Shown: positions 19,070 through 38,900 of the stretch, in pieces
Numbering within the stretch: the stretch's first letter is position 1
Layout: every line of letters starts with the position of its first letter
From: Burkholderiales bacterium
GTDB lineage: Bacteria; Pseudomonadota; Gammaproteobacteria; Burkholderiales; Burkholderiaceae_C
Direction: 5' to 3'
NCBI GenBank assembly: GCA_016191995.1
Contig: JACPVA010000132.1
Location: forward strand, 1-64,000
Length of the DNA: 64,000 bases
Made by a program: the position numbers and the translations under genes
The notes under the pieces: generated by a model
The model's input: the letters and a program-made list of their open reading frames with translations, nothing else
Told to the model about the DNA's origin: nothing
The model's database searches: none

Positions 19070-19291
19070 GAGACCCGCGCGTTGGCCGGTTTGCCATCGT
19101 TCCAAGGCCGCAGGCTCGGCAGCGCCTTGCTGGCGGACGCAGCGCTTCGCTCGGCACGTTCAGAGGCCGCCATCTTAGCCCGGATCGTCGACGCCAAGGA
19201 CGACGATGCCGCCGCGTTCTGCCGGCACCACGGCTTCGAACCGTTCGGCGGCCACGTTGCGGCTTCGGCGCCTCGAGGGCGGAGCACCTGA
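19070..19291 (+). pseudogene. Remnant of a GNAT acetyltransferase (TacT-like toxin) C-terminus
   Basis: RRLGSALLADAALRSARSEAAILARIVDAKDDDAAAFCRHHGFEPF resembles the GNAT toxin C-terminus; no upstream GNAT N-terminus; overlaps the GDT1 upstream region. Confidence 0.6.
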
Positions 19292-19300
19292 CGGCTGCCA

Positions 19301-19597
19301 TTGTTCGAGCTGACTGCATGTGACCCGCACGAACACTTGCCGATCTACAACCCGGCGCTGGGCCTGATGATGCAGTTCGAGAGGCTGGTGGCGAGCTTCT
19401 CGCGTCAGCACATGGGCACGCTTGGCACCGGGTTGCGCGAAGGAAGCCGGGCGGTGCTGGTGCAGGAGGAGCGCGCCAACAACACAAGCCCCCGCGGCAG
19501 GCGAGCCGGCGGACTGGTGGTGCTGCGAGACCGCATCGAGCCCGGCTGCTGGCAGGTCTTGCCCGGCCCTCGTGCGGATCCGGGCCCCGCTCGATGA
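19301..19597 (+). pseudogene. Avd-like four-helix-bundle protein (diversity-generating retroelement accessory), apparently degenerate
   Basis: DPHEHLPIYNPALGLMMQFERLVASFSRQHMGTLGTGLREGSRAVLVQEERANN...LVVLRDRIE matches the remembered pattern HExLPIYK...FSRxHxYTLGTDLRxxxR...RANxR. Confidence 0.5.
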
Positions 19598-19621: not shown

Positions 19622-19821
19622 CTAGAACTGCTTGGGCAGTCCCGCTTGCTTCAACACGCCGTTGGCGGTGTGTCGAGACAAGATCTTGTGGTCGACCGGG
19701 AAGCTCTCATCCCGCTGCGCGGGGAGTGCCAGATGTCGTGATCGCCCTTGCCGTGGCGGACGAACTCGCATCCAGCCAGCTTCAACAGCCGGACCGACTC
19801 CGGCGTGAAGCTCTGGCCCAT
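19622..19821 (-). pseudogene. hicA: HicA-family toxin interrupted by a frameshift
   Basis: Frame 1: MGQSFTPESVRLLKLAGCEFVRHGKGDHDIWHSP then out of frame; second frame resumes RDESFPVDHKILSRHTANGVLKQAGLPKQF*. Confidence 0.75.
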
Positions 19822-19826
19822 CACGG

Positions 19827-20066
19827 TCAGGCGGCAGCGGGAAGCGCGACGCTGAACCGGCGCGCAAGCAACTCGACGACCACCTGGCCATCGGCCGGCA
19901 TGCAGCCGTTGGCCTCCAGCAACTCCGGCACCATGCTCCTGAGCTTGGCGTCCAGGGCTTCGATGGTTTGCGCTTCAGTGACCAGACCCGGTACCTCATC
20001 CGAGGTGGCGACCCAGACCGCGGCTTCGTCGTCCCATTCGGCGCGCACGAAGTAGGGCTTGTTCAT
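19827..20066 (-). CDS. DUF1902/HicB-like antitoxin
   Basis: MNKPYFVRAEWDDEAAVWVATSDEVPGLVTEAQTIEALDAKLRSMVPELLEANG. Confidence 0.8.
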   Translation of the reverse strand: MNKPYFVRAEWDDEAAVWVATSDEVPGLVTEAQTIEALDAKLRSMVPELLEANGCMPADGQVVVELLARRFSVALPAAA

Positions 20067-20665
20067 GGACCCATGATACGCCGCGCACCAGGCGCGGTGG
20101 CTCGCGGTGATGCGCGCCGAAGGGCCAGAGCACGCCATCGGCAGCGCCGCGCGCCGGTGCAACGGTGGGTGGCGGTCGAGGGGAAAGCGGCGGTGCGCGA
20201 CCGACCGGTGTGAGCGACGGCGGGTGTCTCCTCGTGGCTGACAAGGTGAACTGGGGTCGGGTCCAAGCCGACGCAGCTCGCGCGTTTCCGGATTCGCGAC
20301 ATTCGATCGACGACTCGCGAAACGGGCAAAGGATGTCGCGCTGACGCCGCCGGTGGCGTTGCCTGCCTGAACCGAAATCCGGCAGTTATCCCGTCGCTGG
20401 GACCCCGGTTGAGCAGACCAGGGTCAGTTCCCGCATTCCTGTGCGCCGGGCGGGTGCACGAGAATACGCTCGACGCGATCGGGCCGGCCTGGCCGCTGGG
20501 GCGCTGAGCGGCGTCGCGCCGAAGCGCGAAATTCTTCAACTGGGGCAAGGATGTGACCGCGTTAGTGCGCCAAGAACCGCGCTCGCGCAGTCTCTTCCCG
20601 GGTGTCCGAACGGGCACTGCCATGCCGACCATCGGGCCCCGGTCCTTCATGAAAGGAGCCGCATC

Positions 20666-35927: not shown

Positions 35928-38900
35928 GTGAACGATCGAAGCGACGCCAGCGACCGCGCCGACGCCGAGCTCGACGAACTGCTCGAACCGGTCGTCCGCC
36001 GCATACGCGAGCGGCTGCCGGCGGCGCAGGCGGGCATCGCGGAGGACTTCGTGCGCCAGTACTACCGCGACGTCGACGCCGGCGACCTCGCCGAGCGCGC
36101 CGCCGACGACCTCTACGGCGCGGCGCTGTCGCACTGGCACTTCGCGCGCAGCTACCCCGGCGGACGGCCCAAGCTGCGCGTCTTCAACCCGCGCGTCGAC
36201 GAGCATGGCTGGCAGTCCTCGCACACCGTGATCGAGATCGTCAACGACGACATGCCGTTCCTCGTCGACTCGATCACGATGGAGGTCAACCGCCAGGGGC
36301 TGACGCTGCACCTGATCGTGCACCCCGTGCTGCGGCTGCGGCGCGACGCCGAGCACCATATCGTCGAGCTGCTGCCGCCGCAGGGCGACGGCGAGGGGCG
36401 CTACGAGTCGCTGATGCACGTCGAGGTCGACCGGCGCAGCGACCCCGAGCGGCTGCAGGCGCTGCACGACGGGCTGCTGCAGATCCTGGGCGATGTGCGC
36501 GCCGCGGTCGAGGACTGGCAGCCGATGCGCGAGGCGCTGGTCGACGCGGTGGCGCAGATCGAGCGCCGGCCGCCGCCGGTCGCGCCGGACGAGCTGGCCG
36601 AGGACCTGGCCTTCCTGCGCTGGCTGGCGGCGGACAACTTCACGCTGCTCGGGCAACGCGACTATGCGCTGGTCGACGAAGGCGGCCGCGACAGCCTGCA
36701 AGTCCTCACCGGGTCGGGGCTAGGGATCTTGCGCGCCGGCGCCGGCGCCGAGGCGGCTTCGGCCTCGTTCGCCGCCCTGCCGCCCGAGGTGAGGGCGCGC
36801 GCACGCGACCCGCGACTGCTGCTGCTGACCAAGGCCAACGCGCGCTCGACCGTGCACCGGCCCGGGCACCTGGACTATGTCGGCGTCAAGCGTTTCGACG
36901 ACACCGGCCGCGTCGTCGGCGAGCGCCGCTTCCTCGGCCTGTTCACCTCGATCGCCTACAACGCCAAGGCGGCCGACATCCCGCTGCTGCGGCGCAAGCT
37001 CGCCGCGGTCACGCAGCGTGCCGGCTTCCTGCCGCGCAGCCACAAGGCCAAGGCGCTGGCGACGATCCTCGAGCAGTTTCCGCGCGACGAGCTGTTCCAG
37101 ATCGAGCCGGACGACCTGCACCGCATCGCGATGGGCATCCTGCGCCTGGGCGAGCGCCAGCGCACGCGGCTGTTCGTGCACCGCGATGCCTACGGCCGCT
37201 TCACCTCGTGCCTGGTCTATGTGCCGCGCGAGAACTACAACACCGAGGTGCGCGCGCGCATGCAGTCGCTGCTGACCGAGGCGCTCAGCGGCGAGTCCTC
37301 CGAGTTCGCGGTGCAGTTCTCGGACTCGCCGCTGGCGCGCGTGCTGATCGTGGTGCGCACGCCGGCCGGCCGGGCGCGGCCGATCGACGTCCAGGACCTC
37401 GAGCAGCGCATCGTGCGCGCCGCGCGGCGCTGGGACGACGAGCTGCGCGATGCCCTCGTCGAGGCGCGCGGCGAGGAGCGCGGCAACGCGCTGCACGAGC
37501 GCTATGCGCGCGGCTTCGGCCCCGGCTACCGGCACGACTACGGCCCGCGCGAGGCGGTGCGCGACATCGAGATGATGGAGTCGCTGGCCGACGACCCCGA
37601 TGCGATGGCGCTCGGGCTCGTCCGGCCGCTGGAGGCGGCGCCGGACCGGCTGCGCTTCAGGCTGGTGCGCGGCGGCGAGCTGGCGCCGCTGTCGCAGAGC
37701 ATGCCGATGCTCGAGAACATGGGCGTGCAGGTGCTCGAGGAGCGGCCCTACGAGGTCCGCCGCAGCGACGGCGGCGAGCTGTGGATCGACGACTTCGGCC
37801 TGGCGGTGCCGGGCGGCGAGGAGATCGATGTCGACGCATTGCGCGAGCGCTTCCTCGAGGCCTTCCGGCGCACCTGGACCGGCGTCAACGAGAGCGACGC
37901 CTTCAACCGGCTCGTGCTGCTGGCCGGGCTGGACTGGCGCGGCGTCTCGCTGCTGCGCGCCTGCATGCGCTACATCAAGCAGGGCGGATTCCCGCTCAGC
38001 CGTGCCTACATCCAGCAGACGCTGGCGTCCTACCCGGCGATCGCTGCCGAGCTGGTGGCGCTGTTCCACGCCCGCTTCGACCCCGACCCCGACCCCGACC
38101 ACGACGGCGACCGCGACGCCGCGCAGGCGGCGATCGGTGCGCGCATCGAGGCCGCGCTCGACGCTGTCGCCAATCTCGACGAGGACCGCATCCTGCGCCA
38201 GGTGCTGGCGCTGATCCGCGCCACGCTGCGGACCAACTTCTTCCAGCGCGGCGCCGACGGCGGCTTCAAGCCGGTGATCTCGTTCAAGATCGACCCGGCC
38301 AAGGTGCCCGGGCTGCCCGCGCCCAGGCCGCGCTTCGAGATCTTCGTCAGCTCGCCGCGCGTCGAGGGCGTGCACCTGCGCTTCGGCCGTGTCGCGCGCG
38401 GCGGGCTGCGCTGGTCGGACCGTCTGGAGGATTACCGCACCGAGGTGCTCGGCCTGGTCAAGGCGCAGCAGGTCAAGAACACCATCATCGTCCCGGTCGG
38501 CTCCAAGGGCGGTTTCGTCGTCCGCAACCCGCCGGCCGGCGGCGACCGCGAGGCTCTGCTGGCCGAGGGCGTGGCCTGCTACCGCGCCTACCTGCGCGGG
38601 CTGCTCGACCTGACCGACAACCTGGACGGCGGCCGCGTCGCGGCGCCGCCACGCGTCGTGCGCCACGACGACGACGACCCCTACCTGGTGGTGGCCGCCG
38701 ACAAGGGCACGGCGACGTTTTCCGACATCGCCAACCAGACCGCGGCCGAGTACGGCTTCTGGCTCGGCGACGCCTTCGCCTCGGGCGGGTCGGCCGGCTA
38801 CGACCACAAGAAGATGGGCATCACGGCGCGCGGCGCCTGGGAGTCGGTCAAGCACCACTTCCGCAGCCTCGGGCACGATACGCAGAGCCAGGACTTCAGC

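Follow-up and report, generated by a model that had tools for sequence, protein, structure and literature searches.

Avd proteins are four-helix bundles and have a fold in common with the proteins of 23S rRNA intervening sequences (IVS). In the prototype of the diversity-generating retroelements (DGRs), the experimentally active element of Bordetella phage BPP-1 (mtd-avd-TR-brt; PMC3240598), the accessory gene avd lies between the target gene and the TR-RT. Avd and the DGR reverse transcriptase (RT) together make adenine-mutagenised cDNA from the template (TR), and this cDNA takes the place of the variable repeat (VR) in the target gene (PMC3240598, PMC6642488). DUF1566 (Lcl_C) is reported to be the Pfam domain found most often in targets of DGRs (PMC6642488). 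Among the intact relatives of the locus described here is a complete DGR from Azohydromonas sediminis (L048), with the following layout:

NZ_QOAZ01000010.1, 5585-5723: VR, in the target gene
NZ_QOAZ01000010.1, 5992-6354: avd
NZ_QOAZ01000010.1, 6574-6712: TR
NZ_QOAZ01000010.1, from 6726: RT

All mismatches between TR and VR fall at TR adenines in this element (16 of 16), as they do in L044 (16 of 16) and L046 (20 of 20), and by anatomy the three are intact DGRs; RTs next to related intact cassettes are 62-69% identical to that of A. sediminis. Two phage DGRs from IMG/VR, L042 and L043, have the order target, avd, TR region, RT, with DUF1566/Lcl_C-like targets and with Avds that match both bAvd (PF22296) and NF033474.

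The window, by which we mean the whole stretch of 64,000 nucleotides analysed here, contains what sequence comparison identifies as a pseudogene fragment of a DGR avd, corresponding to its decayed front two-thirds:

19301-19597, + strand: TTG-started open reading frame (ORF) of 98 aa, open by chance around the pseudogene, whose ancestral gene boundaries differ
19318-19320, + strand: surviving ancestral avd ATG, placed by its sequence and by comparison with the copy on contig C159 (ATGGCCCGGCAC)
19328-19542, + strand: fragment of an avd pseudogene that corresponds to codons 4-75 of ~120 (nhmmer) and is 51% identical to A. sediminis Avd

With six intact avd genes of Betaproteobacteria combined into a DNA profile, nhmmer aligned 19328-19542 to profile positions 10-224 of 363 with 112.8 bits (E = 3.8e-34), and the runner-up place in the window reached 6 bits. 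The ORF peptide scored 77.4 bits against intact betaproteobacterial Avds, compared with a maximum of 23.9 bits for 1000 shuffled peptides, and is 51-58% identical to intact Avds residing within target-avd-TR-RT cassettes. In tblastn searches, its best segment was 52-59% identical to eight of ten genome loci, all eight of them betaproteobacterial, the remaining two being L050 (49%) and L053 (33%). The phage elements L042 and L043 have in common with the window remnant the HEHLPIYKAALDL...LGxDLR core and the gene order of its lineage, but are intact, phage-borne and only ~30% identical to it overall (42% over 52 residues, E = 4e-14, in a single comparison with the L042 Avd); the Avd of BPP-1 is distant in sequence. 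The ORF peptide alone had no match at E <= 10 in Pfam, NCBIfam or PDB and none in the phage and plasmid collections, and the curated Avd models detected neither this remnant nor the one on C159. Since the peptide by itself matched nothing, the bridge to its identity is formed by intact relatives: the window and C159 copies, used as an alignment, led to the two phage DGRs and from there to the ten genome loci. The Avd-like character proposed in the sequence-only reading is borne out by these matches. The ORF described there is exact in coordinates, strand, TTG start and length, although homology to Avd is confined to 19328-19542 and the TTG, which just happens to lie upstream in the homologous frame, is not the start of avd.

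The window copy is far from a complete four-helix protein of ~120 aa. The ancestral ATG is immediately followed by an in-frame TGA resulting from a 1-nt indel (TGACCCG here versus GCCCGG in C159), so that its frame stops at once. Relative to the profile, the fragment carries further indels of +4, -3 and -1 nt, and ~45 C-terminal codons are missing, with no resemblance to the Avd C terminus beyond 19542 in any forward frame. Instead of a VR-bearing target and a TR-RT, its neighbours are a GNAT remnant and a DUF1902/HicA-like pair. The former, just upstream (~19110-19291, + strand), is a possible C-terminal fragment of a GNAT acetyltransferase that Pfam matches only weakly (14.9 bits), and hints at a region of gene decay. 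The latter (19622-20067, - strand) comprises an antitoxin-like gene of the DUF1902 type (83 bits) and, behind it, a gene for a HicA-like toxin with an apparent frameshift, its first half scoring 21 bits and the remainder lying in another frame, which reflects either a real pseudogene or an assembly error.

The same genome contains a second avd pseudogene, 48% identical to the window copy and located ~70 nt behind a putative DGR target gene:

C159:3290-3508: avd pseudogene with one in-frame TAG, 63% identical to A. sediminis Avd
C159:3582-4382: Lcl_C/PEP-CTERM target gene (Lcl_C 24.1 bits, below the cut-off; PEP-CTERM 32.3 bits)

The C159 avd covers profile positions 1-220 of 363 (E = 4.6e-40, nhmmer with the same avd DNA profile) and is truncated at its 3' end, with the 3' third missing. 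The target gene has a C-type-lectin-like VR at its 3' end, which aligns without gaps to the A. sediminis TR (73% over 136 nt), and its Lcl_C type is ordinary, DUF1566 being reported as the commonest domain of DGR targets (PMC6642488). Thirteen of the 37 differences between this VR and the A. sediminis TR fall at TR adenines (Fisher p = 0.04) and 24 at other bases, a weak adenine signature, as would be expected in a comparison with the TR of another species. The target and avd follow one another in the same order as in A. sediminis, whose DGR is complete, whereas all that the genome studied here keeps is broken copies of avd and a single target. Beyond the break of the C159 avd, at a distance of about 90 nt, lies not a TR-RT but a member of a ~140-bp repeat family. 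This family, found at C159:2963-3293 and in about 60 other places of the genome, looks like REP/BIME or MITE elements, and its members often form closely spaced inverted pairs, for example C19:37784-37923 (- strand) and 37909-38046 (+ strand).

The remaining parts of a DGR were not found in the draft genome, which is MAG-like (4.55 Mb, 199 contigs, 94% complete). Its sole RVT_1 match (G000:C77:62701-63321; L001) is a group II intron reverse transcriptase/maturase (TIGR04416, 409.7 bits), and the A. sediminis RT used as a query had no match in it; the same RVT_1 search detected RTs in five of six related genomes. No TR with adenine-specific mismatches to the VR emerged from searches of the draft with the C159 VR and with the A. 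sediminis TR, of which the cleanest scored all of its 32 candidates and two others 40 of their initial candidates. The best of the short secondary matches, 19-29 bp on C22 and C174, were rejected, as they lie within what look like transporter and hydantoinase-like genes. The wider genome search suggested by the sequence-only reading thus returned a VR-like target with a second avd pseudogene, and neither a DGR RT nor a TR; the "orphan or decayed module" of that reading holds up.

Taken together, the fragment in the window is very probably the dead 5' part of an avd gene that belonged to a DGR of betaproteobacterial type with the order Lcl_C/PEP-CTERM target (VR)-avd-TR-RT, a system that has been lost here. 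By its anatomy and by analogy with BPP-1, the Avd of this lineage would have taken part in producing mutagenised cDNA from the TR for replacement of the VR, and the element would once have been intact in this lineage. The window copy no longer has its start context, its former neighbours or the C-terminal third; the C159 copy still has its old target gene but contains a stop codon and is cut short at the 3' end. Both avd remnants are presumably inactive, and of the machine's working parts none is left in this genome, with the possible exception of the target gene. The DGR appears dead in this genome because neither a matching RT nor a template was found beside the two decayed avd copies.

Alternatively, the DGR could still be alive, with its RT and TR in an unassembled gap, the C159 target still being diversified and the window copy representing dead litter. 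An RT or TR could indeed sit in such a gap, given an assembly that is 94% complete and divided into 199 contigs; contigs with related DGRs often stop inside the cassette, several related loci start no more than a few hundred bases from the end of their contig, and DGR repeats may break contigs. However, the avd copy next to the only target has an internal stop, lacks its 3' third and is followed by the dispersed repeat rather than by a TR-RT, and the C159 VR differs from the A. sediminis TR, admittedly that of another species, mostly at non-adenine positions, so that it bears no fresh adenine signature relative to that TR. We consider a living element very improbable.

Even less probable is that the window fragment derives from a four-helix-bundle protein of the 23S rRNA IVS kind (PF05635/TIGR02436) unrelated to DGRs. 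Beyond the fold in common, this idea draws on weak matches of the intact relatives to PF05635 (23S_rRNA_IVP, 15.8-20.7 bits) and of one of them to TIGR02436 (16.3 bits). Nevertheless, the closest intact relatives score higher with bAvd PF22296 (32-39 bits) and NF033474 (Avd; 28-33 bits) than with the IVS profiles, those with enough flanking sequence (L042, L043, L044, L046 and L048) sit inside TR/VR/RT cassettes, and the paralogue in the same genome lies behind a VR-bearing target. One outcome that the sequence-only reading had named as fatal to its proposal, hits to IVS proteins only, did not occur. The Avds of L044, L047 and L048, which belong to this lineage, score under the curated cut-offs of PF22296 (40) and NF033474 (80) and may therefore go unnamed in automatic annotation.

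The pattern of substitutions bears on whether the remnant has been under selection. Between the window and C159 remnants, identities at first, second and third codon positions are 65, 72 and 71%, compared with 72, 85 and 47% between the intact L048 and L044, where the differences are mostly at third positions; third positions that match as well as the first and second are expected for neutral decay without selection. That the shortened Avd was retained in a different role, for example as a small nucleic-acid-binding protein, is the least credible reading. Although 72 codons are free of stops (given the G+C content, an open frame of this length does not speak for function) and several conserved residues persist (HEHLPIY, LREGSRAVL and RANN), there is no usable native start, the fragment contains internal indels, third positions show no excess of changes between the two remnants, and 80 further genomes of the genus yielded no close relative of this Avd lineage. 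A different Avd lineage, 28-38% identical, is carried by some congeners (G008, G016, G028 and others), in several cases with adjacent RTs; the weak protein matches L006-L008 in genus members were discarded as unrelated or wrong-frame ORFs.

Broken DGR pieces are also present in other betaproteobacterial genomes, including avd 5' fragments (L050, L051 and L052), an RT with a large internal deletion (L045) and several RT fragments (G065); decay has therefore recurred in this lineage. The window and C159 remnants break off only 4 nt apart, at profile positions 224 and 220 of 363, respectively. Such near-identical 3' ends are poorly explained by independent decay, with a chance of roughly 2-3% by our own estimate. 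The two breaks may have a common origin, although the DNA behind them shows no homology between the two loci. In a related case, L051 and L052 (JANXYG010000057 and JANXYG010000050), from one MAG, share an avd 5' fragment that breaks off at an identical codon (...YHKY) and has related sequence behind it, and full-length avd copies (L045 and L047) are located elsewhere in the same genome. It is conceivable, if rather unlikely, that this betaproteobacterial DGR lineage spreads within a genome in the form of target+avd cassettes, and that its repeated extinction leaves behind 5' pieces of avd broken at favoured sites. This possibility is raised by the two remnants that end nearly together without common downstream DNA and by the two loci of the related MAG cut at one other common point, beside intact copies. 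If true, avd relics would be a marker of DGR copying and loss.

Our literature searches turned up no account of avd relics like these, which does not prove that none exists. The fragment is a relic of a known kind, mainly of historical interest, and alters no known mechanism. It shows that DGRs lost from bacterial chromosomes can still be recognised by their fossils, and that at a given locus the sole trace of such an element can be an avd relic, beneath the reach of curated profiles, so that surveys starting from the RT would miss such genomes.
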